Origin: Candidatus Thorarchaeota archaeon
GTDB lineage: Archaea > Asgardarchaeota > Thorarchaeia > Thorarchaeales > Thorarchaeaceae
Assembly: GCA_029855935.1 (NCBI GenBank)
Contig: JAGSHN010000030.1
Location: forward strand, 1-64,000
Length of the DNA stretch: 64,000 bases
Reading direction: 5' to 3'
Position 1 is the first letter of the stretch, and the number at the start of each line of letters is the position of its first letter. Position numbers and translations under genes: made by a program. Below the pieces are notes generated by a model. It was not told where the DNA came from, did not search any database, and saw only the letters and a list, made by a program, of their open reading frames with translations. Of the stretch, positions 2,502-45,488 are shown piece by piece.

Positions 2502-3173
2502 ATGTACAACCTGCCACACCCTCCAGGAGAGCACGCCAAGAAGAGCCCCTTCGCCCTCTTTGTAGCCGCCATCCTGATTGTCTCCGGCATAGTTCTGGCG
2601 ATCTACGAGTGGCTCAATGCATCATCGGTCTATGATTGGGCTGCGGGGTGGGGCTTGGCGACACCCCTGTATCTCATTTTCATAGGAGTGATGATGAGCG
2701 ACCTTGACTCGGCCGAGTCGCTGAGGAAACTGGCGGAACCGATAGCCACCGAGCTCAATCTGCCGACTTATGCAGAGAGCGACTTTGTATCTCTGAGGCG
2801 GATGTTCTTTGCATTGCTATTAGTGCTGACGCTACTGAGCGTTGTGCCGCTACAGTACCAATGGTCATTCGTCATGTGGTTTCTAGTCACCTTCGGTCTG
2901 CTTGCCACAGAGATCTCGGTGTATGTGTTCATAGGGGAGATGTTCCTCTATCTCGTCGTCGTGGCAGTTCTCTCTACAATCTCTCTCACTATTGCTACGA
3001 AGACTCATCCTCTTGGAGGACAGATCCTCGAACGGCTGCAGGAGATTGAGGCCGAGGAGAAGAAGCGCGAGAAAGAGCAGAAGGGTCAGCAAGAGAAGGC
3101 CGAACCGGAAAGTGCAAGCCCTGACGAAGGCGAGAGCGACTTGGATTTCGGATTCAGTCCCGACCAAGAATAG
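2502..3173 (+). CDS. Four-helix membrane protein with charged cytosolic tail
   Basis: 223 residues and no known family recognised. Hydrophobic segments lie at about residues 15-38, 45-65, 98-118 and 122-165 (the last probably two helices), followed by a strongly charged, Glu/Lys-rich tail of about 50 residues that looks like a coiled coil and then a disordered acidic end. The start was chosen at ATG 2502 because the neighbouring paralogue at 3272 begins at the same position (MYNLPHPP versus MYSTPQVP). The frame could extend to ATG 2451. A motif shared by both copies is AEPIA.EL.LP.YAE.D. The role is unknown; the tail may recruit a partner to the membrane. Confidence 0.7.
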   Translation: MYNLPHPPGEHAKKSPFALFVAAILIVSGIVLAIYEWLNASSVYDWAAGWGLATPLYLIFIGVMMSDLDSAESLRKLAEPIATELNLPTYAESDFVSLRRMFFALLLVLTLLSVVPLQYQWSFVMWFLVTFGLLATEISVYVFIGEMFLYLVVVAVLSTISLTIATKTHPLGGQILERLQEIEAEEKKREKEQKGQQEKAEPESASPDEGESDLDFGFSPDQE

Positions 3174-5854: not shown

Positions 5855-5931
5855 CCTGCAGGACCGCACATTGTGGCTGTACGGTGCTTCAGTGAATAGA
5901 CTCATATTGAGCGCAGAGAATTGGGTTGCCT

Positions 5932-7128
5932 ATGCCAGAGCCAGCAACGGTGTATTTCGGTTCTGTCCAGCATGGTGCCAAGGCTGCCTTTGCATCATTC
6001 GCAGCGAAGGTCGACGAGGTCTTCAGGAGACTGGACCTCTCCACGATTGACAAGAAGGACAAGGTTGCGATCAAGATGCACCTTGGTTTCAGGGACGGCT
6101 ATCAGACGGTGCCCGTGTTCTTTGTCCGTCGGATTGTCAAGGCAATCAAGGAACGGGGTGCCTTTCCGTTTGTCACCGACAATCCGACGTCAGTGTACAA
6201 TGCTGTTGCGAGGGGCTACACGCAAGAGACATGTGGCTGTCCAATCATTCCGATAACTGGTGTGAAAGACGGCTACGTGGAGAGGGTCGATGCCGGGCTC
6301 CACGGCGTCGAGAGTATGGATCTTGCTGGAGTTCTGAGGGACGCGGACGTCCTTGTTGACCTGACGCACGTGAAGGGCCACAACTCTTGTGGCTTCGGCG
6401 GTGCAATCAAGAACATCGCCATCGGGGGCTACGCCGCAAATACGAGGTGGAAAAAGTATCACACCGTGTACTCGCACGTCCCATACTGGGACCCTGACAA
6501 GTGCACACCGGAGCACGCAAAGAGACTTGTCGACTCCTGTCCCTACAACTGCATCAAGTACGACGAGGGGAGACACAGTCTGACGATAGTGTTCGATGTG
6601 TGCAATCAGTGTATGAAGTGTATCAGAGCTGACGAGGGGGTCGGATGCCTGGACATAAGACAGGAGCACTTCTCCGCGTTTCAAGAGCTTATGGCCGTCG
6701 GTGCGAAGATCGTCCTTGACACCTTCGACGAAGACAAGCGGTTCTTCGTCAGTTTCCTGACTGAGATAACCGCCCTGTGTGATTGCTGGGGCTTCGGGCA
6801 GCCCTGTGTCGTCAATGACATCGGAGTACTCTCAAGCCGGGACATTGTTGCCATAGAGCAGGCGTCGCTGGACCTCATAGCCAAGGAGGGCCTGATCGAG
6901 AAGAACATCCCACCGTTCCTGCGGACCAATCTCGATCCCCATATGGACCTGCATCCATTCCAGCGCCTTCACGGACCAATGAAGGACCCCCATATCGCGG
7001 TCCGGTATGCTGAGAAGCTCGGGCTCGGGACCACAGAGTACGAACTTGTCGAGATTCTGAGGCCAGAGGAGACCCTGAAGATGAAGCCGCCGGAGGGCAT
7101 CAGCGAGACAGAGCCATCATTCTTCTAG
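5932..7128 (+). CDS. DUF362 domain protein with cysteine clusters
   Basis: A 398-residue protein of the DUF362 family, seen in 'DLTHVKGHNSCGFGGAIKNI' (a hallmark of the domain) and the N-terminal 'AIKMHLGFRDGYQTVP'. The middle contains two cysteine groups, CPYNC and CNQCMKC, like [4Fe-4S] ligands, although the spacing differs from a classic 2x4Fe ferredoxin. DUF362 proteins are often near redox enzymes, but their reaction is not established. ATG 5932 is used; a TTG six bases earlier is also in frame. No signal peptide is seen. It is divergent from the MFS transporter, so a shared control region of under 80 bases lies between them. Confidence 0.8.
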   Translation: MPEPATVYFGSVQHGAKAAFASFAAKVDEVFRRLDLSTIDKKDKVAIKMHLGFRDGYQTVPVFFVRRIVKAIKERGAFPFVTDNPTSVYNAVARGYTQETCGCPIIPITGVKDGYVERVDAGLHGVESMDLAGVLRDADVLVDLTHVKGHNSCGFGGAIKNIAIGGYAANTRWKKYHTVYSHVPYWDPDKCTPEHAKRLVDSCPYNCIKYDEGRHSLTIVFDVCNQCMKCIRADEGVGCLDIRQEHFSAFQELMAVGAKIVLDTFDEDKRFFVSFLTEITALCDCWGFGQPCVVNDIGVLSSRDIVAIEQASLDLIAKEGLIEKNIPPFLRTNLDPHMDLHPFQRLHGPMKDPHIAVRYAEKLGLGTTEYELVEILRPEETLKMKPPEGISETEPSFF

Positions 7129-27242: not shown

Positions 27243-27782
27243 ATGAGCGGAACGGCACTCAGGGTGGTACTCCCTCCTGAGAAACGGGAGCGACTTGTTC
27301 TGATACTGCATCCCCGAAGGATTGCGTTCATCATCCACTACGTCGTCGGTGCCGTGTTCATATTCGTCGGCTTTCTCTACTATGTGACAGCGGCTGGTGG
27401 GTGGACCGCGGAGAACATGGTCTCCTGGACTCTTGGTCTCATCTCTATTGGAATCGGCTCGCTCATTATGGTCCGGGTCGAACTGAAGCGCAGATACACA
27501 CTGTACATAGTGACAAGCTGGAATGTCCGGACTCGGACGGGAATAGTCCGCCGAAGCACGGTGCGTGTATTCTACGATGAGATTGACTTTATGGAGACCA
27601 CCTCGACTCCCGAGGAGCAGATTGCAGAGATGGGGGATCTCCGCATATTCTCGAAGAAGAGGCCCGATGCTCCGGCAATCGTGTGGTCCAATCTCTGGAA
27701 TCCAGAGGGCATCCGGGAGGTCATCCAGCGCTTTGTGGATACGACCCCTGACCCGCCTCCTTGGTCGCATATTCCGCGGTAG
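27243..27782 (+). CDS. Membrane protein with bacterial PH-like domain
   Basis: About 179 residues. Two hydrophobic helices ('RIAFIIHYVVGAVFIFVGFL' and 'SWTLGLISIGIGSLIMVRVE') are followed by 'RRYTLYIVTSWNVRTRTGIV' and 'YDEIDFMETTSTPEEQI', the layout of bPH_2/YdbS-type domains, where strands follow a membrane hairpin. The ATG at 27243 (in MSGTALRVVL) is preferred over an in-frame TTG at 27204. The family's role is unclear; it may assist membrane organisation. Confidence 0.65.
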   Translation: MSGTALRVVLPPEKRERLVLILHPRRIAFIIHYVVGAVFIFVGFLYYVTAAGGWTAENMVSWTLGLISIGIGSLIMVRVELKRRYTLYIVTSWNVRTRTGIVRRSTVRVFYDEIDFMETTSTPEEQIAEMGDLRIFSKKRPDAPAIVWSNLWNPEGIREVIQRFVDTTPDPPPWSHIPR

Positions 27783-27889
27783 CCCTGCTCAATCATAGAC
27801 TGGGAACGCCCCGCTCATCGACCGAGTGCACATTGGAAAGTTTCAAGAAGGAGTTATGCTATGTCAGTCTACGGAGGCACCATCGAGAC

Positions 27890-28582
27890 ATGTGGGAACG
27901 GACTGCAATCCGTTTTGAGCAAGAAACGGGTGGTACAATAGTGTCAAGTCTTCCTCTTCGCAGCGCCGAAGTGATTCTATCGGACCGGGGAATATCTAGC
28001 ATAGACCTGGGCCAGTTTGCCCCGCTCGATAATGTGACGGTGATCGACCTCTCCAAGAACCTGCTGCGTAGTCTCGACCTGTCCCCGCTGGTCAATCTCT
28101 CCAGGCTCCGCGTTCTGAATCTCTCAAAGAACCGGTTGGAGAGCATCTCTCTCGCCCCCATCGTAAGGTGCCGCCATCTTGAAACAGTCGACGTCTCACA
28201 CAACCAGCTTAGACAGATAGAACTCGCGGAATTTCCACCTCACTCGAGACTGAAGCGAATCTATCTGAATGACAACAGGCTGACCTCACTCGACCTAGGC
28301 GCATTTGGAAAGTGTGAGGAGCTACAGTTCCTCATCTTGAGCAACAATGAGCTTGAGGCAATCGATCTCAAGCCGCTCGTCGGTTGCCAGCAGCTTGCAT
28401 ACATAGTGATATCTGGCAACAAGATCAGGGAGATTGATGTATCACCTCTGTTTCACGTCTACAGCCTAGAGGTCTTTGCTGTCGACCCCGACACCGTGTT
28501 GTACGCCAACAAGAGGCTGCAGAGTGCAGAGGCCGTACCTCTCCCGATTGCCGACAAGATGTCCAGAATTGAATGGCGATAG
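27890..28582 (+). CDS. Leucine-rich repeat protein
   Basis: 230 residues. About eight LRR units run from residue 30 on, each with a pattern like 'VIDLSKNLLRSLDLSPLVNL' and 'RVLNLSKNRLESISLAPIV' (LxxLxLxxNxLxxLDL). There is no signal peptide or membrane anchor, so it should be cytosolic. ATG 27890 (MWERTAIRF) is the natural start; the frame is open upstream to 27761 but overlaps the end of the previous gene with poor composition. LRR proteins bind other proteins; no partner is indicated by position. Confidence 0.75.
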   Translation: MWERTAIRFEQETGGTIVSSLPLRSAEVILSDRGISSIDLGQFAPLDNVTVIDLSKNLLRSLDLSPLVNLSRLRVLNLSKNRLESISLAPIVRCRHLETVDVSHNQLRQIELAEFPPHSRLKRIYLNDNRLTSLDLGAFGKCEELQFLILSNNELEAIDLKPLVGCQQLAYIVISGNKIREIDVSPLFHVYSLEVFAVDPDTVLYANKRLQSAEAVPLPIADKMSRIEWR

Positions 28583-28903: not shown

Positions 28904-29018
28904 TGAGCCTCGTCAGAAACTCTCCTGCCATAGATGAAAAGGTCTCTTCCTGAGTTTGTCATACTCTTGCAATACTAGCCCTCATGACGGATACGTGTAC
29001 GATGGTCTTGTGGTTCCA

Positions 29019-29669
29019 ATGGCCGATCCGGAAGAGACAGCCGCGAGAATGACCATCAAGGTGGCAGGTGAGCTTCAAGACATACGGGACCACTGGGTGC
29101 GCCGTCTCGACCAGTACTTCAGCGACATAGAGAGACTAGTAGATGGTGAGTGGCTCTCAGTTGACGACGTAAAAGGGGTCATCAGGGAGGTCAGGCTCGC
29201 GGCAAGAGAGGCTCTCGACGGTCTTGGCAATGACCTCAGTGCGGTGCTTGTCCACGAGTCGGGGGGACTGTTCGCACGCTTCGAGGCAGAGCGTCAGTCA
29301 CTACTCGATGAGATCAACTCCCTTCGTTCTTCACTTGCAAGGGCACTGTCCGGTCACGAACGTCAGATATGGAGGGAGAACGAGGCCCTGAGAGCCGCAC
29401 TTGAGCAGGTGCCAGAGTTCAAGCTCCTGAGATCCCTGCAAGAGATTGGCACTGCGACCTATAGAGACCTTGCCGCCAAGACAGGCCTCAAGTCTGCGGT
29501 GCTGAAGCGGCTCGTCAAATCGCTCACGGGGATGGGCTACGTCGCTGTGGACAAGAGGTCGCGTCCCCATCGGGTGGTCTATCTGTCTTCGCCGTGGACA
29601 ACGGACGCCACGGCAAGTCTGAATATCGAGCGGCAGGAGGTCACAACGCAACAACCTCCTCTGGCCTGA
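29019..29669 (+). CDS. Coiled-coil protein with C-terminal winged helix
   Basis: 216 residues. The N-terminal two-thirds are long helices with heptads (e.g. 'ERQSLLDEINSLRSSLARAL'). The C-terminal part, about 145-200, is a winged helix ('LRSLQEIGTATYRDLAAKTG', 'SAVLKRLVKSLTGMGYVAVD'). It is probably a dimeric DNA-binding regulator. ATG 29019 (MADPEETAAR) is chosen over the upstream TTG 28956. Its 3' end overlaps by 29 bases the convergent membrane gene, so the two transcripts form a short antisense overlap. Confidence 0.68.
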   Translation: MADPEETAARMTIKVAGELQDIRDHWVRRLDQYFSDIERLVDGEWLSVDDVKGVIREVRLAAREALDGLGNDLSAVLVHESGGLFARFEAERQSLLDEINSLRSSLARALSGHERQIWRENEALRAALEQVPEFKLLRSLQEIGTATYRDLAAKTGLKSAVLKRLVKSLTGMGYVAVDKRSRPHRVVYLSSPWTTDATASLNIERQEVTTQQPPLA

Positions 29670-31216: not shown

Positions 31217-31903
31217 GTGCAGCAGATTGTGGAGGTACTCCTTCAGGTCGGAGCGAGCTTCGCGGTGGGCTTTTACACTGCAGTCTCACCGTGCCTGTTT
31301 CCTCTCCTCCCGCTCATGCTACTTCGGAGCCTCCAGACTGAAGACTCCCATCGGCATAGTCTCCTCATCACGATGACTCTGGTGCTGGGCATCCTGAGCT
31401 CAATCGCAGTGTTTGCTGCAATCTCAGGACTCATCGGGATGTTCCTGGTCCAGAATCATAACCTCCTACAGGCGGGGCTGGGCGTCCTGCTTGTCTTCTT
31501 GGGAGTGGTCACGATGTCCGAGAGACTGCGAACTCTGCTCCGTCTCTCCACCCTTAGCCTGACACGGCAACCAGACCTTCCTACCAGCCTGCTGAACGTC
31601 TATCTGATCGGACTCGGCTACTCCCTTCTCGCAGCACCGTGTTCCGGCCCCGCCCTACTAGGAGTGTTCGTACTGTTCGGTTCCTCAAGCGAACCAGTCA
31701 TTCTGATTGTGATGTTTGTGGCGCTCGCTGTGGGAGTCACGATACCCTATCTGGCGATTGCCCTAGTCAGTGGAGAGGCCCGTCAGAGAATGACATCGTC
31801 ACTCGCAAGGTCTTCCCGACTGGTCGAGATCGTCGTTGGGACTCTGCTCATCATAGTCGGCGTAGTCCTGATGCTACCCTTCTTTGGGGTGGTCATCCTC
31901 TGA
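31217..31903 (+). CDS. ccdA: CcdA-family transmembrane thiol-disulfide transporter
   Basis: 228 residues with six hydrophobic helices. The two redox cysteines sit in the proline-rich helix motifs 'AVSPCLFPLLP' and 'LAAPCSGPALL', which define the CcdA/DsbD-beta family. It carries reducing equivalents from cytosolic thioredoxin to the TlpA-like protein encoded just before. GTG 31217 is the start. The 3' end overlaps the convergent cofE gene by 30 bases. Confidence 0.9.
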   Translation: MQQIVEVLLQVGASFAVGFYTAVSPCLFPLLPLMLLRSLQTEDSHRHSLLITMTLVLGILSSIAVFAAISGLIGMFLVQNHNLLQAGLGVLLVFLGVVTMSERLRTLLRLSTLSLTRQPDLPTSLLNVYLIGLGYSLLAAPCSGPALLGVFVLFGSSSEPVILIVMFVALAVGVTIPYLAIALVSGEARQRMTSSLARSSRLVEIVVGTLLIIVGVVLMLPFFGVVIL

Positions 31904-32674
31904 GACCACCAGATCGCTCTTCGGACGCGCAAACAGGTCCTCAGCAGGGTCGCGCAGGATGCTTGTGGCAGTCCCCTCCGTTCTCTCGACTCGGAGCCCT
32001 CTGACCACCGCCACCGGGACACCCTCATCTGCCTGGCCCATCACGAGCTCGGCGGCCGCCGCTATCTCGTCGGCAACACAGATGAGCGACGACTTCAACA
32101 CCCGGCCGAAGAGGTCGGTCTTTCCGGCATTCCGGACAAACGGGTCGATGCCAGAGACCCCGATACACACATTGACAGCGCCCCTACGCCACGGCCGACC
32201 CTGGGTGTCCGTGATGATCACGCCCACCGACACTCCGCCCCACTCCTGAATGTGTGTCCTCAGACGCTCAGCAGAGGCGTCGGGGTCTCTTGGAAGAAGA
32301 ACGACGTAGCCCTCCGTAGCGTTGCTCAGGTCCACCCCTGACATGTCGGTGACAATGCCAGCACGAGTGCGAGTGATCAACACGGGTGCCTCAACAAGAA
32401 CCTCATCAGCCTCATCGAGGGCCACCTGTACGACGCGAGGGTCTCGGCCCGTCAGTGATGCGATTCTCTCGGCCGTACGCGACACTTCAACAGTCCTCAG
32501 ATCCACCACGCGGCCCTCGGATATGGACACCACCTTGTGCGTGACGACAACGATATCGCCATCTTGGAGTCGCAACCCCGCCCTCTGCATCTGGTTCACT
32601 ATTAGAGAGCCGAGGTCATCGCCCGGAGATACGGGGGGGATTCCAGTGACAGGCACGACCTCGTACTCGGACAT
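31874..32674 (-). CDS. cofE: Coenzyme F420-0:L-glutamate ligase
   Basis: 266 residues from ATG 32674 (GTG 32683 adds three). It matches CofE throughout: 'VTGIPPVSPGDDLGSLI', 'DGDIVVVTHKVVS', 'VGVIITDTQGRPWRRGAVNV' and 'AGKTDLFGRVLKSS'. It adds glutamates to F420-0, the last steps in making the deazaflavin cofactor. Here the LLM oxidoreductase (20055) and FrhB-type protein (52683) may use F420. It lies 36 bases downstream of an ECF S-component gene on the same strand. A decayed relative lies at 36990-37400. Confidence 0.92.
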   Translation of the reverse strand: MSEYEVVPVTGIPPVSPGDDLGSLIVNQMQRAGLRLQDGDIVVVTHKVVSISEGRVVDLRTVEVSRTAERIASLTGRDPRVVQVALDEADEVLVEAPVLITRTRAGIVTDMSGVDLSNATEGYVVLLPRDPDASAERLRTHIQEWGGVSVGVIITDTQGRPWRRGAVNVCIGVSGIDPFVRNAGKTDLFGRVLKSSLICVADEIAAAAELVMGQADEGVPVAVVRGLRVERTEGTATSILRDPAEDLFARPKSDLVVSEDDHPKEG

Positions 32675-32710
32675 CGCCTCCACCGGTCCCAGACAGGTGA
32701 CGTCGAGGTC

Positions 32711-33334
32711 TCAGTCCTTCTCGAGCTCGCTGTTCTTCTGCTCCTCTATGCTATTGCCCTCGCCAAGCCCGGCCTGAAGGGCGAGATCGCGAGGGACTGC
32801 GCGGTAGAGGACTGTTCCGCCGATGACGTTTATCGCAGACTGGAGCGCGTTCCACGGGAAGAGGATGACGCCAACGCTGAGGGCAACGTCGTATGGCAGA
32901 CCGTAGAACAACGGGAGCGCAACGTAGTTGAACAGGAGCATACCTGCTGCTCGAAACAGGCAGGCAAGGAAGAGGCTCACTATGAACCTCACCGTCTGAT
33001 GACCTGAGCGGGAGGAGACAATCTTTCCGCCGATGTAGAATCCGAGGACCGTGAGAGTCTCAGCAGCCACCTTGAACGTCGCCCCAATGGGGTTTCGGTA
33101 GCCGATGGCCACTCCCATCACGCACACCGTTATCAGAGAGTAGACCAGACCAAGGCCGATCGCAACGAAGATGATGGGGATGCCCGTCCAGTCGATGGTG
33201 AAGTAAGGGAACTGCGGTACAACCTTGAGGTCCGTCACTCCGACGATGGGGAACACCTCAAGCATTGCTGTCATTGCAGAGAAGACAGCAAGGAGGGCTA
33301 TGCTCCTCGAGTCGCGTCTGAGTCTCAGCTGCAT
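32711..33334 (-). CDS. ECF-type transporter substrate-binding (S) component
   Basis: 207 residues with about six helices. 'FPYFTIDWTGIPIIFVAIGL' and 'VMGVAIGYRNPIGATFKVAA' follow the ECF S-component pattern, with an acidic-polar cytosolic end. Such proteins bind a vitamin or precursor and dock on a shared ECF energising module, which is not encoded in this window. RibU-like riboflavin transport would fit its position before cofE, since F420 and flavins share precursors; this is inference. No riboswitch-like structure was recognised upstream. Confidence 0.75.
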   Translation of the reverse strand: MQLRLRRDSRSIALLAVFSAMTAMLEVFPIVGVTDLKVVPQFPYFTIDWTGIPIIFVAIGLGLVYSLITVCVMGVAIGYRNPIGATFKVAAETLTVLGFYIGGKIVSSRSGHQTVRFIVSLFLACLFRAAGMLLFNYVALPLFYGLPYDVALSVGVILFPWNALQSAINVIGGTVLYRAVPRDLALQAGLGEGNSIEEQKNSELEKD

Positions 33335-33528
33335 CTACTGTCACCCGCCCTTCGAGAGGCATTGCTCCTGAAAAGCATAGTCCTCAGGCGGTCGTCGTGG
33401 CCGAATGAAACGCAGTCGTTTAGGGAGGAGCGCGAGGAGAAGTTGAGCAGGTCATCAGTACCGCAGCGATCTCCCACACACGGGGCTGGAAACAATAGAG
33501 AGTGGTTTGAGATACGGGAAACCAATTT

Positions 33529-36500
33529 ATGATGACAAGGATGACCCGGACTCACAATTGCGGGGCGGACACGGTGGATATCAAGGGTCTGATGAAGAAG
33601 GTTGGAAAGGGCATCCTTGTTGCCGCCGCGAGCATGGTGGCCGGCGTTGCACTTGGTCCGATGGCAGGTGGCGCTGTCGGTAGTCTTGTCGCGAAGAAGA
33701 TGGCAGAACTCGGTGTCAGTATCGACGCTGACGCCATTGGCGACATGATTCAGAGAAGGATCAAGGATACGCCCGAGGGTATTGCAAGGCTCTTCGAGAG
33801 AAAGCAGATGGATGGACTTGCCAAGGAGATAGCGAGGGAACTCGGCATCAGGCAGGATGAGGCCTTTGCTGCACTCCAGTACGGCCTACGTGAGCTGCAG
33901 AACACGCTCTCCGGAATTGTTGAAGAGTTGAAGACCAATCAGTCCCTCCTGCTCGAGGTCCTCCACCTTGCACAAGAGTCAGACTCGAAGATTGGAGCAA
34001 TTATGGAGAACACATCACGGATTGAGGTCTCCATCAGTCAAGTAGATACGACCCTCAGATCCATCGAGCGCCAACTTGAACGCGTCTTCAAAGAGTTCTC
34101 AAAGAAGTATTCCACTGCAAGACTTGACTATGAACGGTTGCTGATAATCAGCCGCCTGCACCGACAGAATGCCATACTGGCCTCCCGCTACGGCATCTGC
34201 TACGACCCTGACCTCTATGTGCCCCGACTACGCGATGAGGAGACCTTTGAGGACTTCCTGAGCGATGTTGGTCTCACCGACAGAAACGTCTTCCTTGTGC
34301 TCGGTGACGTGGGCATGGGCAAGACGTGGTTCCTGTCGCGACTCTCCTCCATCACACTAGGTCGAGGCTATCCCTCCTTCTTTGTGACCCTCAGACAGGG
34401 GATCCGCAGCCTGACCGGGATACTGAACCGCAGTACCCTCCCCGAGTTTGTCAGTGAACTGGAGTCGGTCATCTCATCCAGTGACCAGCACGCATTCATC
34501 TTTCTTGACGGACTTGACGAGATGCCGGGTCGAGAGGCCCGGGTCATTCTTGGAAACATAGCGACCACAAGGTCCAACGCGGTGTCGTTCGTGCTGTCCT
34601 GCCGGATTGCGGACTGGACAGTTGATGATAGCATCGTACAGGCATCCCACGATTTGAGACACTCCATCTTTGAGAATCAAGAGGCGACTCACAGGGCAGC
34701 CAGTCTGGGAATCAGGACCCCGGTCTCCGTGCTGCTGACAGAGTTCACAGAACCGGAGACGAGGGCGGCAATCGAACGGTATGGCATCACGCATTCCATT
34801 CCACCAGACCTGCACTCACTCATCAGGAGGCCCTTCATCCTAAGACTGGTCGCCCAGTGGTCTGCAGCTCACGGCTCAGTCCCCTCGCCATCGTCACCCG
34901 AGTTCCTCGACCTGATGGCTGGTGACGACAACCCTGCAGACTCGATTCTCGGCAGGCTCGGTATCATCACCCAGCGTGAGACCCTTTTCGAGATCGTCAA
35001 GAGGTTCATTCTGGAGAGGCGTGATAGACTTCTGCTCTCACAGTTGCCAGTAGATCCGGAGTCGGACACCTTTCAGACCATTGTGTCCTCCGGGATATTG
35101 CAACTCAGTGTGGGCAGAGTGGGAACAAATGTGACAATCAACCAGAACTTCATCATCCCACTCATCGCCCTCACAATGGAACGATTCTCTATGATCAGCA
35201 ATGATTATGACGCACTGCGGGCCTCTCTAGAGGAGTGGCTTCCCGATGTCGCGGCCAGTGTTGAGAGGCTCCTCGGTCAACCCAAGAGCCCATTCGCTCC
35301 CATCCAGACACAGGGACGTTCGACACCTGTAGACCAAGCACAGTCCTCCACTGCGCTGCCAGACTCCACCGAGGTCGTCCCCCCAATCGGACGACTCTTG
35401 GCGGATGAAGACAAGGATGTCCGCAGCCACACAGTAGAGGGAGCGAGCAAGGCGGCCAGTCGCCTGCCGGACTCTACCGAGGTTGTCGGCCACGTTCAAT
35501 CGCGGAGACAATCAGAACCCACAGATGCTGCACAGCCTTCCATCATCCTATCGGACCCCAAAGAGATTGTCGACCTCCTCCGACCACTCCTCAGAGACGA
35601 TATGCATGTCCGCGGTGCCGCGGCGGTGGGGCTAGGCCTCGTGGCCACCGCTCTGGCGGGCTCCACAGAGATCATCGACCTGCTCCGACCACTCCTCAGG
35701 GACAAGGAACCGTATGTGCGCTATCACGCGGCCTGGGGTCTTGGTCTGGCGGCCACCACCCTGCCGAATCCCAATGAACGAGTTGACCTACTCCGACGAC
35801 TTTTCGAAGGGGTCAACCTCCATAGTGCCTCGGCGCTGGGTTTGAGTCTGGCAGCCACTTCTTTGCCGAATCCCTCGGAGCGAGTCGCAGTGATTCGTCC
35901 ACTCCTCACACACAAGAGCTCGGACAACCGCAGGGGCGCGGCGTTGGGCATGGGCATTGTGGCCACCACCCTGCCTGACCCCACAGAGGTCATCGACCTC
36001 CTTCGACCACTCCTCAGTGACGAGGACGTGGATGCCCCTGGGTACGCAGCCTTGGGCCTGAGTCTGGCGGCCACCACCCTACCGGACCCCACCAAGGTCA
36101 TCGATCTGCTCCGACCACTCCTTGACCACAAGGATGTAGATGTCCGGATACGTACTATGCGCGGCCTGAGTCTCGTGGCCACCACCCTGCCTGACCCGAA
36201 GGAGCGAGTCGGCCTGTTTCGGTCACTCTTCAGGGGGACGCACTACCAGCATAGCGCGCAGAGGGCATTGTGCCTTGGTTTGGTGGCCACTTCTTTGCCG
36301 GATTCCACATATATCGTCCATGATCTCCAAGAGACCATTGACAGACGGAAGGGACTTATGGAAATACGAGACACCCTTTTCGGCGGCATTCCATCTGACC
36401 GGATTGTCATGAATTATGCGGTGTGGGGTCTTGGTCTGGCGGCCACCACCCTGCCTGACCCGAAGAAGCGAGTTGAATTGCTCCGACCGCTCCTCAGGGA

Positions 36501-36891
36501 CAAGGACGTCCGCAAGAACGCGGCGTTTGGTATGGGCCTGGTGGCCACCACGCTGCCTGACCCGAAGGAGCGAGTCGAACTCCTCCGACCACTCCTCAGG
36601 GACAAGGACGAGGATGTCCGTGGGTACGCGGCCCTTGGCCTGGGCCTGGTGGCCACCACGCTGCCTGACCCGAGGGAGCGAGTCGAACTCCTCCGACCAC
36701 TCCTCAGGGATAAGGACTGGGCTGTCCGCAAGAACGCGGCGTTGGGCTTGGCGCTCACTTGCTACCCTGTTGGTCGGATTCCATTCGGATATTGGTCTGC
36801 GTTGCAAGACAACTTTTCGCACACTTCGGAGGTAATGCTCCCGATTGCGTTGGTGGTTCAATCATACGCAAACAAGAAGGACAGAAAATAG
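33529..36891 (+). CDS. STAND (NACHT-like) ATPase with N-terminal hydrophobic region and HEAT-like repeats
   Basis: 1120 residues. A glycine/alanine-rich hydrophobic segment (about 28-54) is followed by helices and a coiled coil (about 100-200). The NTPase has Walker A GDVGMGKT (259-266) and Walker B FIFLDGLDE (323-331), with a sensor-like 'FVLSCRIADW'. From about residue 607 to 1080 there are some 13 repeats of 34-38 residues built on 'LPDPKERVELLRPLLRDKD' and 'ALGLGLVATT'. This is the plan of NLR-like immune proteins: effector, STAND switch, repeat sensor. ATG 33529 is shown; a TATA-like CAATTTATG at 33523-33531 could favour GTG 33574 or ATG 33592. The gene lies between the ECF/cofE pair and a cofE pseudogene. 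Confidence 0.85.
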   Translation: MMTRMTRTHNCGADTVDIKGLMKKVGKGILVAAASMVAGVALGPMAGGAVGSLVAKKMAELGVSIDADAIGDMIQRRIKDTPEGIARLFERKQMDGLAKEIARELGIRQDEAFAALQYGLRELQNTLSGIVEELKTNQSLLLEVLHLAQESDSKIGAIMENTSRIEVSISQVDTTLRSIERQLERVFKEFSKKYSTARLDYERLLIISRLHRQNAILASRYGICYDPDLYVPRLRDEETFEDFLSDVGLTDRNVFLVLGDVGMGKTWFLSRLSSITLGRGYPSFFVTLRQGIRSLTGILNRSTLPEFVSELESVISSSDQHAFIFLDGLDEMPGREARVILGNIATTRSNAVSFVLSCRIADWTVDDSIVQASHDLRHSIFENQEATHRAASLGIRTPVSVLLTEFTEPETRAAIERYGITHSIPPDLHSLIRRPFILRLVAQWSAAHGSVPSPSSPEFLDLMAGDDNPADSILGRLGIITQRETLFEIVKRFILERRDRLLLSQLPVDPESDTFQTIVSSGILQLSVGRVGTNVTINQNFIIPLIALTMERFSMISNDYDALRASLEEWLPDVAASVERLLGQPKSPFAPIQTQGRSTPVDQAQSSTALPDSTEVVPPIGRLLADEDKDVRSHTVEGASKAASRLPDSTEVVGHVQSRRQSEPTDAAQPSIILSDPKEIVDLLRPLLRDDMHVRGAAAVGLGLVATALAGSTEIIDLLRPLLRDKEPYVRYHAAWGLGLAATTLPNPNERVDLLRRLFEGVNLHSASALGLSLAATSLPNPSERVAVIRPLLTHKSSDNRRGAALGMGIVATTLPDPTEVIDLLRPLLSDEDVDAPGYAALGLSLAATTLPDPTKVIDLLRPLLDHKDVDVRIRTMRGLSLVATTLPDPKERVGLFRSLFRGTHYQHSAQRALCLGLVATSLPDSTYIVHDLQETIDRRKGLMEIRDTLFGGIPSDRIVMNYAVWGLGLAATTLPDPKKRVELLRPLLRDKDVRKNAAFGMGLVATTLPDPKERVELLRPLLRDKDEDVRGYAALGLGLVATTLPDPRERVELLRPLLRDKDWAVRKNAALGLALTCYPVGRIPFGYWSALQDNFSHTSEVMLPIALVVQSYANKKDRK
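36451..36768 (+). repeat. Near-identical coding repeats in the STAND gene
   Basis: The last three HEAT-like units are very similar at DNA level, not only in protein. Units begin with CTGCCTGACCCGA at 36451, 36553 and 36661, giving steps of 102 and 108 bases (34 and 36 codons). Blocks such as CTCCGACCACTCCTCAGGGA recur unchanged. This points to recent expansion or gene conversion; units nearer residue 610 are much more divergent. Confidence 0.75.
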
Positions 36892-36989: not shown

Positions 36990-37400
36990 GTCCTCTGGTC
37001 CGAAGAGGTCCTGAGTTTCAACAGAAAAGGTGGTTCGGATTGGCGCGTCACCATCATCAACACTGAGATCACGATCCGTCGCAATGGGGATGCTTTCAGT
37101 AGCCCATCTCATCAATAGCTCTGCCGCGGGTGCAATCTCTTTGGCGATACGGGCCAACGATGAAAGCGTGGTTCGCGTGTAGAGGTCTCACTCTCCGGAC
37201 TCTCCTGCGATGAGATCAAGGCCATACAGGCTGATGCATTTACTCGATGCTTGCTCTCTACGGCCCTTCCTGAGTGTCCGCCACAATGGATTGGACGTGA
37301 AGACCGGGCCCATTGAGAATATCCTGACTAGTTGCTCCCGCACTCACGGGAGGATCTCTGAACAGGGTAACAACATATCGGAGAGGGCGTCTTGCGCCTC
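36990..37400 (-). pseudogene. Decayed C-terminal half of a second cofE-like gene
   Basis: Minus-strand translation matches CofE residues about 125-245. Pieces found: 'RYVVTLFRDPPVSAG' against 'GYVVLLPRDPDASAE'; 'VADTQEGP*RA' against 'ITDTQGRPWRR', where a stop replaces Trp; after a frameshift, 'CISLYGLDLIAG' against 'CIGVSGIDPFVR'; then a stop, and 'DLYTRTTLSSLARIAKEIAP' plus 'AAELLM' against 'DLFGRVLKSSLICVADEIAA' plus 'AAELVM' (about 21 of 42 identical in the longest part, counted by eye). At least two stops and one frame change make it non-functional. The N-terminal half is not recognisable. It lies between the STAND gene and adenine deaminase. Confidence 0.75.
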
Positions 37401-37532: not shown

Positions 37533-39284
37533 ATGTTTCTGTCGCGCTCAGAGACCTATCCACTGGACGATATGATAGATGTTGCATCTGGGAGAACGAG
37601 AGCGGATCTCGTCCTGAAGAATGCCTCCGTGGTGAACGTGTTCACGGGCGAGATTGAGGAGGGCGACGTGGCGATCTTTCAGAACTACGTCGCTGGCATT
37701 GGCAAGTACGAGGGAGACAAGGTCATAGATCTCAAGGGACAGTACGTCGTTCCCTCGTTCATTGACGCGCATGTCCATGTCGAGTCATCGATGGTGATGC
37801 CCATTCAGTATGCACGCGCTGTCGTCCCCCACGGCACGGGCGCCGTCGTTGCAGACCCCCACGAGATAGCGAATGTTCTGGGTATCGAGGGCATCCTCTA
37901 TATGAGCAAGAGTATGCGGGGCGGCCCTCTTGAGTTCTACATCATGGTGCCGTCCTGTGTGCCCTCGACCGACCTTGAGACGAACGGAGTCTCGCTGGAC
38001 TTTCTTGACATCAAGCCGGTCCTGACGGAGCATTACGTCCTCGGCCTGGCCGAGGCGATGAACTATCCCGGCGTGATCTATCGCGACCCCGTCATTCTTG
38101 ACAAGATACGTCTGGCACTGGCGATGGAGAAGCGAGTCGATGGTCACGCGCCGGGAATTGCGGGAAACGACCTGAACGCCTACGTCGCGGCACGTATCAC
38201 ATCAGACCACGAGTGCACGACGCTCGAAGAGGCAAAGAGGAAGATGGCGAGGGGGATGCACATTCACATCCGCGAGGGCTCCACGGCGAAGAACCTGCGT
38301 GATCTGGCTCCCATCATCACTCCTGAGACGGCGATGTTCTGCAGCTTTGTGACCGACGACCGCAACACGCTTGACCTGCTGACCAAGGGACACATCGACA
38401 TTATGATCCGTGACGCAATCGAGTTGGGCGTCGACCCGGTGCTCGCGATCAAGGTGGCGACCATATCGCCTGCGGTACACTACGGCATCCAGTATGTGGG
38501 CGCCGTCGCGCCGGGCTACTATGCCGACCTCGCAGTCCTTGGTTCACTGGGGAAGGTCGATGTCAAGATGGTCTTCAAGCAGGGGATGCTGGTCGCAAAG
38601 GACGGCAAGATGGTCCGTGAGTTCGGGATGGCCGAGGAGCCCCGACTGAGAAGGTCCGTCAACATCCACTGGCTTGAGCCACACGACTTTGAGGTCAAGG
38701 CACGCGGCACTCACATCAACGTCATTGGGATGATCCCGCATCAGATTGTGACCGACTGGCTTGTCGAGGAGGCACGTGTCATCGACGGCCTCGTTGTCCC
38801 TGACACCGACCGGGACATAGCGAAGGTCGCAATCATCGAGAGACACAACGCCACTGCACCTCACGCCATCGGATTTGTCAAGGGAACCGGCATCAAGGAG
38901 GGCGCAATGGTCTCTTCAATCGCTCACGATAGTCACAACATCGTGGCCGTGGCGACAAACGACCACGACCTGATAGAGGCGGCAATACAGCTAGTGCGAA
39001 TGCAGGGCGGTATCGCTGTCGTCCGTGATGGCAAGGTCCTTGCCTCTCTCCCATTGCCAATAGCAGGCCTGATGTCGGACCGTCCCATCGAGGAGGTCAG
39101 CGAGAAGCTGCAGGAACTGAAGGAGGCAGCCCACGAGATCGGCAGCGAGCTGGACGAGCCGTTCATGTCAATGGCCTTTCTGTCACTGCCCGTCATTCCG
39201 CGCCTCAAGATCACCGACAAGGGACTCGTGGATGTGGACAACTTCCGTTTTGTGGACCTGTTTCAAGTGAAAGGAAGCGGGTAG
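37533..39284 (+). CDS. ade: Adenine deaminase
   Basis: 583 residues, the usual Ade length. The amidohydrolase core shows 'VVPSFIDAHVHVESSMVMP' (metal HxH), 'VADPHEIANVLG', 'VDGHAPGI' and 'FCSFVTDDRN', with the C-terminal domain 'IAHDSHNIVAVATNDHDLIE' typical of Ade. It converts adenine to hypoxanthine and ammonia in purine salvage, using Mn or Fe. ATG 37533 follows GGGTGAGAAGAG. It stands alone after the cofE pseudogene region. Confidence 0.93.
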   Translation: MFLSRSETYPLDDMIDVASGRTRADLVLKNASVVNVFTGEIEEGDVAIFQNYVAGIGKYEGDKVIDLKGQYVVPSFIDAHVHVESSMVMPIQYARAVVPHGTGAVVADPHEIANVLGIEGILYMSKSMRGGPLEFYIMVPSCVPSTDLETNGVSLDFLDIKPVLTEHYVLGLAEAMNYPGVIYRDPVILDKIRLALAMEKRVDGHAPGIAGNDLNAYVAARITSDHECTTLEEAKRKMARGMHIHIREGSTAKNLRDLAPIITPETAMFCSFVTDDRNTLDLLTKGHIDIMIRDAIELGVDPVLAIKVATISPAVHYGIQYVGAVAPGYYADLAVLGSLGKVDVKMVFKQGMLVAKDGKMVREFGMAEEPRLRRSVNIHWLEPHDFEVKARGTHINVIGMIPHQIVTDWLVEEARVIDGLVVPDTDRDIAKVAIIERHNATAPHAIGFVKGTGIKEGAMVSSIAHDSHNIVAVATNDHDLIEAAIQLVRMQGGIAVVRDGKVLASLPLPIAGLMSDRPIEEVSEKLQELKEAAHEIGSELDEPFMSMAFLSLPVIPRLKITDKGLVDVDNFRFVDLFQVKGSG

Positions 39285-42996: not shown

Positions 42997-44574
42997 CTAT
43001 CTGTAGTTCAGCAGTGCTCTCGAGGCTCTGGACAGAAAGAACCAGACCGCTGCGAGGACAAACAGCGGAATCGCCAGAATCAGCAGCAGGCCTGAGACCT
43101 GAAGGACGAAGTAACCCAAGAGGCCCCCGAGTGCGAGATTGATCACGGGAAAGGCAAACACCAGGGGAATTGGTGGGCTTGAGGGCTCGTTCGTGAACAC
43201 GGGTATGTAGGCCCCGATCATTGTGCCCGTCGCGCAGAAGAGCGAGAGCAACGGAAGCGCCAGAACGACGAGCGACAGTACACCATCAAAAGTGACGAAG
43301 TACGCCAGCAGCAGAAGGGCTGGCACTGAGGCTATCAATGACTCGACAAGACTTCCAACAAACTTGGCGAGAACAACCGATGACCGCGGCAACGGGCTGA
43401 CCCGAAGCAGATAGATGTTCTCCCGTTCGTCCGAAAATGACAGCAGTGAAGTCGTGCTTGCAACGTGAAGGAATGCCATCTCGACCAGGAAGAACGCGTA
43501 TGGAATGAGGTTCCGTGTCGACACTGGAAGTGTTATTCTCGTAGCAGCATACGGGAAGACCACCCACAGTAGCACGGCGACGACAGAGGCACCAGCCGCA
43601 GAGACGTATTTCGCAAACTGTAGGGGAGAACGCATCCGCGTCCAGAAGTCCTTCAGGATGACCCACATCATTGGATCGCTGAACCGCGACTGCGAGAAGT
43701 CCACCTCGCCTCTGACCGCGCGCTCCAGTCTTGTTGGCCGGCTGACCGGGGTGGGACGTGCGATGTATCTCTCGTAGTCGCCTCTCTCGACGGACACCGT
43801 GACCACCAGGAACATTATGAGGAAGTCGATTCCGATCAGGCCCATCAGTGGCCACAGAAACTGAGTCTGAAGAATGCCAGCGGCCGACAGAGCGACAAGC
43901 GAGATCAGGCTGCTTGGCAAGAGAAGCCCCAGGACTGGGTTCGAGTTCGTAGCAGGATGGACAAGGGCAAGAGCAATGCAGCCCACGCAGACGTATACTG
44001 CCAGTCTCTTGAGACGACCCAGTCCACTTGCTCTGTGGCGTAGAGTGTACCCCAGCAATGACAGAAGGAAGACAAACTCGAGCAGCCCCAGCGCCCCGAG
44101 AACGGCAAGCGATATCTCACCGAGCGAGAGAGCCGTTCTGATGGTCATAGGATATAGAACCAGTACGATGATGAGGGCGATGGTCAGCTTTCGGAGTATT
44201 CGTCTGGCATATCGCGCTACAAAGATCTGGTGTGGTCCAACTGGTGCTGGCATCAAGGCGAACTCGTCCGGGGGCCTGAGAACAGAGGTCGTCCCTGAGC
44301 CGAACATCCCACTGATCAGCGATGAGGCCATCACCAAGCCAAGGACAGTAGCCACAGACTCGACGGTCAGATAGTCCCGAAGCAGAACGGGGACTGAGGC
44401 CAGCATACTACCCGCTGATGCGACCTGGCCAAGCACCCAGCTGATGAAGATTCCACCACACACCATCACCGCATAGAAACCTAGTAACGATGCGCTCTTC
44501 GCGGTCCTCCGCACACCATTGAGTACCTCGCGCATCTCCACGAAGACGAGTGCGTGAGTCTTCACTTTCCTCAC
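42997..44574 (-). CDS. ABC transporter permease, large
   Basis: 525 residues with about twelve hydrophobic helices in two halves joined by a cytosolic loop ('LERAVRGEVDFSQSRFSDPM'). The layout matches ABC-2 type exporter permeases of the two-half kind. GTG 44574 overlaps the stop of the ATPase gene (GTGA). No substrate is apparent; the set resembles exporters of lipids, peptides or antibiotics. Confidence 0.78.
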   Translation of the reverse strand: MRKVKTHALVFVEMREVLNGVRRTAKSASLLGFYAVMVCGGIFISWVLGQVASAGSMLASVPVLLRDYLTVESVATVLGLVMASSLISGMFGSGTTSVLRPPDEFALMPAPVGPHQIFVARYARRILRKLTIALIIVLVLYPMTIRTALSLGEISLAVLGALGLLEFVFLLSLLGYTLRHRASGLGRLKRLAVYVCVGCIALALVHPATNSNPVLGLLLPSSLISLVALSAAGILQTQFLWPLMGLIGIDFLIMFLVVTVSVERGDYERYIARPTPVSRPTRLERAVRGEVDFSQSRFSDPMMWVILKDFWTRMRSPLQFAKYVSAAGASVVAVLLWVVFPYAATRITLPVSTRNLIPYAFFLVEMAFLHVASTTSLLSFSDERENIYLLRVSPLPRSSVVLAKFVGSLVESLIASVPALLLLAYFVTFDGVLSLVVLALPLLSLFCATGTMIGAYIPVFTNEPSSPPIPLVFAFPVINLALGGLLGYFVLQVSGLLLILAIPLFVLAAVWFFLSRASRALLNYR

Positions 44575-45488
44575 TCCTCCGGAATGCCACCTGTGAGCTC
44601 CAGAAAGACGTGCTCAAGGGTGCGCGCCCTGGGAAATCTCTCTCTGAGTTCGGTCAGTGTACCCCGGCCCACCACGTCACCCTCGTGCATTATCACGAAC
44701 CTGTCGCACAGGCCCTCGGCCACCTCAAGAATGTGGGTGGAGAGGAGGATTGCAGAGCCCGTGTCACGCAGGTGTCTGAGGTGCCGCTTTAGGCTCCAGG
44801 CTCCTCTGGGGTCGAGACCGTATATCGGCTCGTCAAGAAGAAGGACGTACGGCGGCGGTCTGACAAAGATCCCTGCAAGGAGAGTCCTCTGGAGATTGCC
44901 CTTTGAGAGAGAGCCAATGTACGAGTCCAGAAACTCATCGAGCTGCAGCATCCGAGAGAAACGACTTGTTCGGATGATGGCAATGTGTCTCGGCACACCA
45001 TAGATCTTGGCGACAAACGTCAGGTATTCGCGGACACGAAGATTCTCATAGCATGTGGGCCTCTCGGGTATGTAGCCCAGCACACGCTTGGTCTCCGTCG
45101 AGTCCTCTCTCATATCAACGCCGTTCACCATCACGCTGCCACTTGTCGGGCGGATTATCCCGGCGATGGCCCGGAGTGTTGTCGTCTTGCCGGCACCGTT
45201 CGGTCCCACGAGGCCGACAATCTCCCCCGGCCGCACAGTAAGGTCAAGACTCTTGACCGCTGTTGTCGCCCCATACCTCTTCCTGAGTCCAATGACTGAC
45301 ACAGCCGGGTCTGAGAGGGGTCGACCTGTCTGGGCAGGCCGAGGCAGTGAGTCAAGAGCCTCCCTCACAAGACCGCGCAGCTCGGTCACAGTGACGTAGC
45401 GCGTAGAGAGAGGGACGTTCACTGTCTGTGCGAGCCGGCGAAGATCCTCAGCTCGCATCATCTCCAATGTCTCATCGACTGTCTCCAC
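44571..45488 (-). CDS. ABC transporter ATP-binding protein with N-terminal helical extension
   Basis: 305 residues. Residues 1-60 form an unusual helical segment ('MRAEDLRRLAQTVNVPLSTR', 'VTELRGLVREAL') that looks like a small SAP-type or adaptor domain. The ATPase follows: Walker A GPNGAGKT (95-102), signature LSKGN (194-198) and Walker B VLLLDEP (215-221), H-loop 'LLSTHILEVAE'. It energises the neighbouring permeases. It overlaps both neighbours (17 bases upstream, 4 downstream), so the three proteins are made together. Confidence 0.88.
   Translation of the reverse strand: METVDETLEMMRAEDLRRLAQTVNVPLSTRYVTVTELRGLVREALDSLPRPAQTGRPLSDPAVSVIGLRKRYGATTAVKSLDLTVRPGEIVGLVGPNGAGKTTTLRAIAGIIRPTSGSVMVNGVDMREDSTETKRVLGYIPERPTCYENLRVREYLTFVAKIYGVPRHIAIIRTSRFSRMLQLDEFLDSYIGSLSKGNLQRTLLAGIFVRPPPYVLLLDEPIYGLDPRGAWSLKRHLRHLRDTGSAILLSTHILEVAEGLCDRFVIMHEGDVVGRGTLTELRERFPRARTLEHVFLELTGGIPEE

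Follow-up and report, generated by a model that had tools for sequence, protein, structure and literature searches.

STAND receptors occur in bacteria, plants, fungi, and animals; to our knowledge, those of archaea are little known, and those of the Asgard archaea, the closest kin of eukaryotes, are known least. In Avs2, bNACHT, EruA, and HyoA, a P-loop STAND switch is flanked by an N-terminal region on one side and by a C-terminal repeat sensor on the other. The plant CC/RPW8 NLRs and the fungal HeLo/HELL NLRs bear a helix at the extreme N-terminus, ahead of a helical bundle and the STAND switch. Rpn1 and Rpn2, subunits of the 26S proteasome, are toroids made of proteasome/cyclosome (PC) repeats, as is Apc1. 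The number of PC repeats in Rpn1 is given as 9 to 11 in PMC8405992, and PMC12881547 describes the extreme N-terminal helix of HeLo and CC-NLR proteins as acting at the membrane. A survey of Asgard defence (PMC11291487) counted the NACHT ("NLR") proteins of Asgardarchaeota as a defence system; the word HEAT does not occur in its main text. In the open-licence literature, no paper was found to treat a PC repeat and NACHT together, and no prokaryotic PC toroid appeared in the titles or abstract openings among the matches listed.

We analyzed a stretch of 64,000 nucleotides from a Candidatus Thorarchaeota archaeon (hereafter the window). One of its genes encodes a protein, termed the window protein, with an NLR-like order of effector, switch, and sensor. 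This architecture is well supported: hydrophobic N-terminal helices are followed by a helical/coiled-coil domain, a STAND (NACHT-like) ATPase, and a repeat sensor. The layout is that of Avs2, bNACHT, EruA, and HyoA, and weak model matches to Avs2 (E = 1.5e-5; 3.1e-6 in PADLOC), HyoA (2.4e-4), and EruA (3.9e-4) were obtained, with scores far below the NCBIfam cut-offs (23.1 bits against 1000 for Avs2; 18.6 against 1000 and 18.8 against 1200 for EruA/HyoA). Unlike these systems, the window protein has glycine-zipper-like N-terminal helices, a PC-type sensor, and no enzymatic effector domain detectable by Pfam. The likeness to the CC/RPW8 and HeLo/HELL NLRs is one of layout. Among the PDB fold matches listed for the all-helical N-terminal model, there was no HeLo, CC (RPW8), or MLKL 4HB domain. 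In contrast to Rpn1 and Rpn2, the PC-type sensor is fused to a STAND ATPase, and a search of the draft genome for ubiquitin (PF00240) gave no match at E<=0.01, although no control genome passed the PF00240 cut-off either.

Reading frame, N-terminal helices, and ATPase switch

The open reading frame at positions 33529-36891 of the forward strand, on which all features below lie, encodes 1120 amino acids with no internal stop. As relatives with sensors align to its product at 34-44% identity and a partial orthologue (L045) at 77%, the frame is coding and, judged by these alignments, a genuine gene. Translation probably starts at GTG 33574 rather than at the annotated ATG 33529. The annotated ATG falls within a BRE/TATA-like stretch, GAAACCAATTTATG (33518..33531). 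This putative promoter recurs nearly identical 5' of L045, together with other conserved upstream DNA, and the matching GTG is the first in-frame ATG/GTG/TTG of L045. Together with the start region of the relatives and the Pfam scan, these observations define a probable CDS of 1105 amino acids (33574..36891) for an NLR-like receptor, and the GTG start would place the glycine-zipper-like helix pair at the extreme N-terminus. The gene occurs in three copies in the source genome. The C6 paralogue (L036) has an internal TGA, but it was rejected as a pseudogene, since this stop precedes the start and the reading frame runs open from position 7862 of L036.

The helix pair (residues 1-45; 33574..33708) begins with a basic tip, KxxxKKxGKG, followed by AAASxxAGxxLGPxAxxAxG. 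Its conserved motif is GxxxGPxxxxxxG, of which G24 and P29 are invariant in all 14 rows of alignment A1, and the AlphaFold model places helices at residues 12-23 and 29-44. The helices are 90-96% identical in the three closest pairs. The most hydrophobic 19-residue window was found at the N-terminus in 14 of the 14 proteins tested (hydropathy 1.64-1.99), a set slightly different from the rows of A1. As hydropathy reaches 1.74 elsewhere in the same proteins and the helix has a low hydrophobic moment and is not amphipathic, insertion of these helices into a membrane is something that we infer. The pair leads into an all-helical/coiled-coil domain (residues 46-199; 33709..34170), predicted with a mean pLDDT of 77.8 and a pTM of 0.75. 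No Pfam family exceeded its cut-off in the N-terminal region, and its fold found no Foldseek match at E<=0.001 in PDB (best E = 0.14) or BFVD (0.13). JukB (9jht) was discarded as a fold relative, since its VIA Z of 6.7 (best Z 6.8) is at the noise level for helical bundles.

The putative STAND/NACHT-like P-loop ATPase (residues 216-400; 34219..34773), in which the model places strands and helices, contains Walker A, GDVGMGKT (34303..34326), and Walker B, FIFLDGLDE (34495..34521). In the numbering of the 1120-residue form, G262, G264, K265, and T266 of the former and D327, G328, D330, and E331 of the latter are invariant in 14 of 14 A1 rows. NACHT (17.3 bits against a cut-off of 26.7) and nSTAND5 (nSTAND_NTPase5; 21 against 34) scored below their cut-offs, and the label STAND thus rests on the motifs, the domain order, and the relatives, of which the Asgard protein L052 passes NACHT with 27.6 bits. 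A PDB profile search with A1, covering the N-terminus and the ATPase, yielded only weak P-loop and coiled-coil matches (best, ftsY, 1.9e-4). The slowly evolving switch arm that follows (residues 401-567; 34774..35274) is modelled as helices with a strand pair at 465-540 and may include a winged helix.

A first-pass annotation, made from the DNA letters alone, had already read the order of effector, switch, and repeats, and its glycine-rich hydrophobic N-terminus without a described family holds in the light of the hydropathy, Pfam, and fold results above. Its STAND ATPase is borne out by the invariant Walker motifs but not by the Pfam scores. Of the structures that it suggested predicting, the sensor gave an Rpn2-like toroid (see below), but the N-terminal model was all-helical without a significant fold match. 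As to the search that it proposed for the N-terminal domain beside other STAND ATPases, similar stretches are present in further STAND proteins of Asgards and in one leucine-rich repeat (LRR) protein, L133.

PC repeats or HEAT repeats in the sensor

The sensor is separated from the switch by a disordered, fast-evolving linker (residues 568-660; 35275..35553), with a pLDDT below 50 at 570-658 and 42-65% identity in close pairs, which harbours one degenerate repeat (extra match at 600-623). The sensor itself (residues 661-1061; 35554..36756) comprises 11 PC repeats, and its model contains 11 helix pairs and predicts a toroid of the Rpn1/Rpn2 type, which may close into two rings. In VIA, the model was superimposed on residues 348-782 of Rpn2 with a Z of 28.4 and an rmsd of 4.2 A over 385 residues, and all of the best 50 matches listed were Rpn1 or Rpn2 chains. 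Rpn2 was also the best natural PDB sequence for the sensors of the family.

The sensor could alternatively be an ordinary HEAT solenoid that resembles Rpn2 by convergence of short helical repeats, a view compatible with any of the functions weighed below. In the window protein, HEAT_2 (93.9 bits) outscores PC_rep (PF01851; about 29 bits), both being over their cut-offs (21 for PC_rep). PC_rep was found at E<=0.01 in only three of eight members, one of the eight being without a sensor, and at E<=0.001 neither L059 nor L036 had a match. With the window sensor or the A4 profile as query, the top rank goes to designed HEAT proteins, and the first Foldseek match is a designed protein as well. Against convergence, PC_rep reaches 42.8 bits in L056, and Rpn2 accounts for each of the 11 top PDB sequences of the L056 sensor (2e-16 to 2e-11), with a designed HEAT protein only at 4e-4, while an Asgard HEAT control (L027) found no Rpn among the best 60 of 81 matches. 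The number of repeats is 11 in eight of nine proteins (the window protein and seven of eight other complete relatives), albeit some units are weak, and an inner-helix motif, defined post hoc, occurs 3-9 times per sensor but is absent from two HEAT controls. We thus regard a plain HEAT solenoid as improbable. On sequence and model evidence, the description of the repeats as PC-type rather than generic HEAT is well supported; the first-pass annotation was right that the repeats are unusual, but its term "HEAT-like" is better replaced.

Distribution, genomic context, and evolutionary rates

Among the 47 genomes of the GTDB family of the source, 10 carry a substantial copy. Seven of the 10 have complete intact genes; in G003 the contig ends within the gene, the copy of G015 lies in pieces at contig ends, and that of G022 encodes a shorter protein. 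G021 retains a truncated remnant. Ten of the 17 named loci are Asgard, in line with the initial view of an archaeal receptor, and the remaining seven match the ATPase only. Behind a homologous switch, five Asgard proteins (L049, L050, L051, L052, and L054) have LRR sensors and L053 has no repeats; L048 bears an extra N-terminal region, and in L133 the N-terminal helix is fused straight to LRRs without an ATPase. The modules are shuffled among Asgards.

The window gene stands between two genes that adjoin in the same-genus genome G002, a closed site that could also reflect a loss. Conserved synteny in all relatives had been named in the first-pass annotation as a mark of a housekeeping scaffold; the patchy distribution and the closed site argue otherwise, but a paralogous subgroup B (eight rows) has neighbours that are partly common across genera, several being secreted. 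A gene for a secreted protein is divergent from the receptor gene in L038, L039, L043, and L044; L037 and L042 have a gene for a large TSP3-repeat protein, and L042 and L043 one for a VIT/VWA protein. Beside the window copy, no shared partner gene was found in the loci compared. Neither did a PADLOC scan of 10 nearby proteins detect a convincing defence gene: BrxC scored 15.5 bits for 28956-29666, and the mad3 match (88 bits) for 44574-45488 was not counted because Pfam identifies the protein as the ATPase of an ABC transporter (ABC_tran, 93 bits) and an ABC exporter lies beside it. No relative was detected on mobile carriers in IMG/VR, phage, or plasmid records. In 10 genomes of genus g5, this intergenic interval is likewise enlarged, but by secreted-looking proteins of ~770 amino acids and by genes that look methyltransferase-like or radical-SAM-like by eye, and not by NLRs; it was dismissed as a defence hotspot.

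Divergence is faster in the sensor than in the switch: between G002 and G001, dN is 0.55 in the sensor, 0.22 in the ATPase, and 0.15 in the arm. There was no sign of positive selection, with dN/dS of 0.01-0.19 in close pairs where computable (0.04 for the sensor in the single computable close pair) and 0.12-0.33 in more distant pairs, dS being often saturated.

Possible function and origin of the receptor

We tentatively propose, as a reading that is quite possible though short of probable, that the window protein is a single-protein, ring-triggered immune receptor of the NLR type in Thorarchaeia, which attacks the membrane and acts against viruses. At rest, the STAND ATPase would hold nucleotide and the C-terminal PC toroid would hold the protein in check. 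The toroid would bind a ligand that is probably either a viral protein or a host protein altered by infection; the ATPase would then exchange nucleotide and assemble into a ring, gathering the N-terminal helices, which could insert into or permeabilize the membrane so that the infected cell is stopped or killed. Among these steps, we infer the ligand or trigger, the oligomerization, the membrane insertion or pore, and the antiviral role. The invariant Walker motifs, the conserved N-terminal helices, the faster sensor, the shuffled modules, the three copies, the patchiness, and the closed site in G002 support an NLR-type receptor, and the HeLo and CC-NLR proteins (PMC12881547) offer a precedent for an N-terminal helix at work on the membrane. 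The lack of positive selection, of a defence neighbour, and of a relative on mobile carriers counts against it, as do the sub-threshold NACHT/nSTAND scores and the shared neighbours of subgroup B, which a housekeeping gene might have as well.

The last point, with the several secreted neighbours and purifying selection, would suit a STAND signalling or scaffold protein of a non-immune process such as membrane-surface or cell-envelope regulation, in which the helices are a constitutive anchor and the PC toroid is a docking platform as in Rpn1/Rpn2. Such a role sits poorly with substantial copies in only 10 of the 47 family genomes, with the closure of the window gene's site in a congener, with the variety of repeats that follow a homologous switch in other Asgards, and with the remnant in G021, and we consider it unlikely. 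It is similarly doubtful that the protein is an immune receptor without membrane attack, whose helices oligomerize or recruit a partner (perhaps L133-like proteins) while another protein responds. L133, in which the helices are fused to LRRs and no ATPase is present, and the lack of a clear amphipathic pore helix fit this alternative, and GxxxG-type motifs can pack soluble helices too; the N-terminal hydropathy in all 14 proteins and the absence of a shared partner gene beside the window copy in the loci compared speak against it.

A zipper-like N-terminal helix combined with a proteasome-type ring would represent a new sensor fold among NLRs and a testable effector, and it hints at the uses of such rings before the rise of eukaryotes. 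More speculatively, the sensor may share descent with the toroids of Rpn1, Rpn2, and Apc1: Asgards would have employed PC toroids for recognition, both by themselves and in NLR-type receptors, before the eukaryotic proteasome and APC/C took one over as a docking platform, and the receptor would be a membrane-attacking Asgard "resistosome". We hold this scenario to be rather unlikely as a whole. If true, the proteasome base would have its ligand-reading ring in common with an antiviral receptor of archaea, a prokaryotic relative of Rpn1/Rpn2 would be placed in a traceable Asgard lineage, and the origin of the toroids in the eukaryotic 19S base could be approached by direct comparison. In the phyla of two bacterial loci, PC_rep exceeded its cut-off in none of 292 and none of 296 genomes, blanks that are no proof of absence. 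In the phylum of the source, it did so in five of 227 genomes, three of which have stand-alone repeat proteins.

The receptor gene, its switch and its relatives

The frame at 33529-36891 (plus strand), claimed in the first-pass annotation, is open over 1120 aa, and we regard it as a real gene because sensor-bearing relatives of the protein align at 34-44% identity. Its start codon is probably GTG 33574, judging from the DNA around the start: the annotated ATG is overlapped by a BRE/TATA-like stretch (33518-33531), and the closest orthologue (77% identity over residues 1-276) keeps the upstream DNA, including this stretch, with the GTG matching 33574 as its earliest in-frame ATG, GTG or TTG. 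Residues are numbered from this GTG.

The P-loop and Walker B motif are typical and invariant in the 14-row alignment of the N-terminus and ATPase, and by motif and domain order the ATPase is STAND-like. To this extent the earlier assignment to STAND ATPases stood, but neither Pfam nor the named defence families reached threshold: the nearest Pfam entries (nSTAND_NTPase5, NPHP3_N and NACHT) were all below cut-off, the Avs2, HyoA and EruA models matched weakly and far under theirs, and the switch exceeded the threshold of none of the named defence families tested. We hold the STAND architecture to be highly probable.

A profile search with the same alignment found 17 named loci, comprising 10 Asgard (6 Thorarchaeota, 3 Lokiarchaeota and 1 Borrarchaeum by title) and 7 bacterial ones, the latter matched over the ATPase part alone (E 5e-6 to 3e-5). 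The N-terminal profile matched 25 of the 227 phylum genomes at E ≤ 0.001, many of them over the coiled coil alone. Substantial copies were detected in 10 of the 47 genomes of the GTDB family, being complete in seven (the source genome G000, G001, G002, G010, G014, G020 and G028) and incomplete in G003 (cut by the contig end), G015 (pieces at contig ends) and G022 (a shorter, 754-aa frame). An eleventh genome, G021, retains only an N-terminal remnant with a stop after 35 codons. The source genome possesses three copies. In the 16-row tree, the window gene grouped with G015 (support 97/99), and eight rows, among them the source genome's copy on contig C4, formed a clade termed subgroup B (100/100); the deep order of this tree is unsure because the outgroup branches are long.

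A sensor of probable proteasome-type repeats

The sensor had been described as HEAT-like. Its helical repeats were confirmed, but it is very probably better described as proteasome/cyclosome (PC) repeats, as both the model and the sequence matches point to Rpn2 and Rpn1. The full-length structure prediction (8 sequences; pLDDT 72.9, pTM 0.45) placed 11 helix pairs at 662-1061. VIA-align matched the model to Rpn2 with Z 28.4 (rmsd 4.2 Å, 385 residues), and its best 50 rows, with Z values of 21.5-28.4, were all proteasome entries whose chain names or residue ranges identified them as Rpn1 or Rpn2. Foldseek ranked the engineered protein 4rv1 at the top (E 1.1e-7), followed by Rpn1/Rpn2, CAND1, PP2A and others.

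In sequence searches against PDB, the best natural match of the window sensor was Rpn2 (8amz_N, 2.1e-7), behind three designed alphaReps. Among the best 60 of 118 matches of the five-sequence sensor profile, a synthetic fusion came top (1.9e-23) and designed alphaReps were interspersed, while Rpn2 (6.7e-21 to 1e-18) and Rpn1 (6.9e-14 and weaker) preceded 6veh (5.7e-9) and PP2A-A (1.8e-8). The sensor of the relative L056 alone gave Rpn2 in all of its top 11 matches (2e-16 to 2.1e-11). As for the controls, an Asgard HEAT array (L027) yielded no Rpn1 or Rpn2 among the best 60 of 81 matches, and a stand-alone Asgard PC protein (L136) yielded two designed alphaReps and then Rpn2 (3.9e-19).

Pfam PC_rep scored 104 bits in L136 and 29 bits in the window protein, over the cut-off of 21. 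It was found at E ≤ 0.01 in three of eight family members (the eight include one without a sensor and two truncated), and at E ≤ 0.001 there was no match in L059 and L036; HEAT_2 outscored PC_rep wherever both were listed. A repeat model, trained iteratively on the same proteins and counting every match to E 10, found 11 units in G000_C4, G020, G010, G002, G001 (one of the 11 being weak, E 0.1-1, in these five), G014 and G028, 10 in G000_C6, and 11 in the window protein, whose linker holds a further, degenerate unit; the tally omits the truncated or short members G003, G022 and G028_C135. The stand-alone PC control from G052 had 12. A closed ring would need a nearly fixed number of units, as seen here, but this consistency falls short of proof. 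The 11 PC-type units of the window sensor resemble the 9 to 11 repeats reported for Rpn1 in PMC8405992, and a reference title in PMC4590430 describes the PC domain of Rpn2 as a closed toroid. An inner-helix motif, composed after the repeats had been seen, was counted 3-9 times per sensor in five members of the family, the window sensor having 6; two PC controls had 5 and 7 occurrences, and two HEAT controls none.

PC_rep exceeded the cut-off in 5 of the 227 phylum genomes, by receptor-family members in G001 and G028 and by other repeat proteins in G052, G055 and G096, and in 0/292 and 0/296 genomes from the phyla of the Nostoc and Mucilaginibacter loci, 0/7 genomes of the bacterial matches and 0/14 controls; a blank of this sort is no demonstration of absence, and the search is insensitive, missing the window genome itself. 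Sampling by group covered the Asgard phylum and two bacterial phyla. Stand-alone proteins with proteasome-type repeats were seen in other families of the phylum, namely L136 (G052:C53, ORF 940-2382), L141 (G052:C91), L137 (G055:C150, ORF 1078-3093; PC_rep 76 bits) and L138 (G096:C97). By visual inspection, the L136 protein has a membrane-like helix at its end, and L137 carries an additional C-terminal domain.

The N-terminal helix module

The first 45 residues comprise a basic tip followed by AAASxxAGxxLGPxAxxAxG. Glycine zippers, with packing of the GxxxGxxxG type, are known in membrane proteins, and we take this label to suit the stretch. It is closely conserved in the 11 Thorarchaeal-family rows of the alignment and altered in three distant rows, with G24 and P29 invariant in 14/14. 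Mean conservation in the 11 rows was 0.68-0.79 per 15-residue block, compared with 0.42-0.62 in most blocks of the coiled coil, 0.64-0.83 in the ATPase and 0.93 in one arm block. The claimed hydrophobic, glycine-rich character was borne out, the N-terminus holding the most hydrophobic 19-residue window in all 14 proteins (1.64-1.99), although this peak is suggestive only, because other windows reach 0.91-1.74. The hydrophobic moment is low. Among close pairs, N-terminal identity was 96% in G020/G010, 96% in G002/G003 and 90% in window/G015; among the regions compared it was the highest in the latter two and within 1 point of the ATPase and arm in the first.

Structure prediction (10 sequences; pLDDT 77.8, pTM 0.75) gave an all-helical model with helices at 12-23 and 29-44, for which no fold match was found in PDB or BFVD at E ≤ 0.001. 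Similar stretches were found elsewhere, in L053 (without repeats), L049 (with leucine-rich repeats, LRRs), the C-terminal half of L048, and L133 (G130:C108, 1476-1910), a protein of ~140 aa in which a similar hydrophobic helix pair leads directly into LRRs and the ATPase is missing. The L133 protein is possibly a co-assembling helper or a deletion product. In the L048/L063 protein (G067, Borrarchaeum contig JAHQJS010000004.1), a 1337-aa relative, ~770 residues of different sequence that look beta-rich by eye come first, and the helix module and ATPase occupy the C-terminal half.

Competing readings and the genomic setting

Our tentative reading is an NLR-type receptor, in which the toroid would sense a ligand, ATP would drive assembly, and the N-terminal helices would attack the membrane. 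The sensor evolves faster than the switch, fitting the expectation for a receptor: dN between G002 and G001 was 0.55 in the sensor and 0.63 in the linker, against 0.22 in the N-terminal 50 residues, 0.34 in the coiled coil, 0.22 in the ATPase and 0.15 in the arm. No sign of positive selection appeared in the dN/dS of the pairs compared (≤0.19 in close pairs where computable; for the sensor, 0.04 in G020/G010, the sole computable close pair, and 0.33 in window/G001). A cellular docking or signalling protein is the main rival and is unlikely, its best argument being the common gene setting of subgroup B. There, a large TSP3-repeat protein is common to L037 and L042, a VIT/VWA protein to L042 and L043, and a secreted-looking protein is divergent from the receptor gene in L038, L039, L043 and L044 (genera g8, g1 and g10); these neighbours count against a purely mobile defence gene. 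An immune receptor acting without membrane attack is similarly improbable. These three readings are mutually exclusive. Taken on its own, membrane action of the N-terminus is somewhat favoured, as is, to a like degree, an antiviral role; the confidences in these two parts, the STAND architecture and the PC-type sensor are correlated.

STAND receptors are known already, and a survey counts NLR/NACHT proteins among Asgard defence systems (PMC11291487, in whose main text the word HEAT has no occurrence). No paper joining 'PC repeat' and NACHT was found in the open-licence literature searched. Against this background, a STAND receptor that combines a PC-repeat sensor with an N-terminal helix module belonging to no described family would be new.

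The window copy lies between a gene without a Pfam match (32711-33334, minus strand) and adenine deaminase (37533-39284, plus strand). Of the 47 family genomes, 13 have homologues of these two genes <500 bp apart, by a hand count from match coordinates; they include G002 of the same genus, where 152 bp separate the matches and 86 bp the called ORFs. In ten genomes of genus g5 the two genes are 3.5-5.3 kb apart, and other genes fill the interval in 10/10 (L119-L128; by eye, ~770-aa secreted-looking proteins, methyltransferase-like and radical-SAM-like genes). The site is insertion-prone; its interpretation as a defence hotspot was rejected on account of this filling. The occupied/closed difference may reflect either gain in the window genome or loss in G002. 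Directly downstream of the receptor gene lies a degraded second copy (~37002-37377, minus strand; 37% identity over 91 residues, with stops and a frame change) of a gene resembling cofE, the coenzyme F420 ligase gene; its intact counterpart is at 31874-32683 (minus strand). Among 10 nearby proteins, PADLOC reported BrxC (15.5 bits), discounted as weak, and mad3 (88 bits, 44574-45488), discounted since Pfam assigns it to ABC transporter ATPases (93 bits) and it adjoins an ABC exporter. A stand-alone leucine-rich-repeat protein is encoded at 27761-28582 (plus strand), ~5 kb upstream of the receptor gene; L044 has a similar protein (5829-6983) close to the relative there, possibly by chance.
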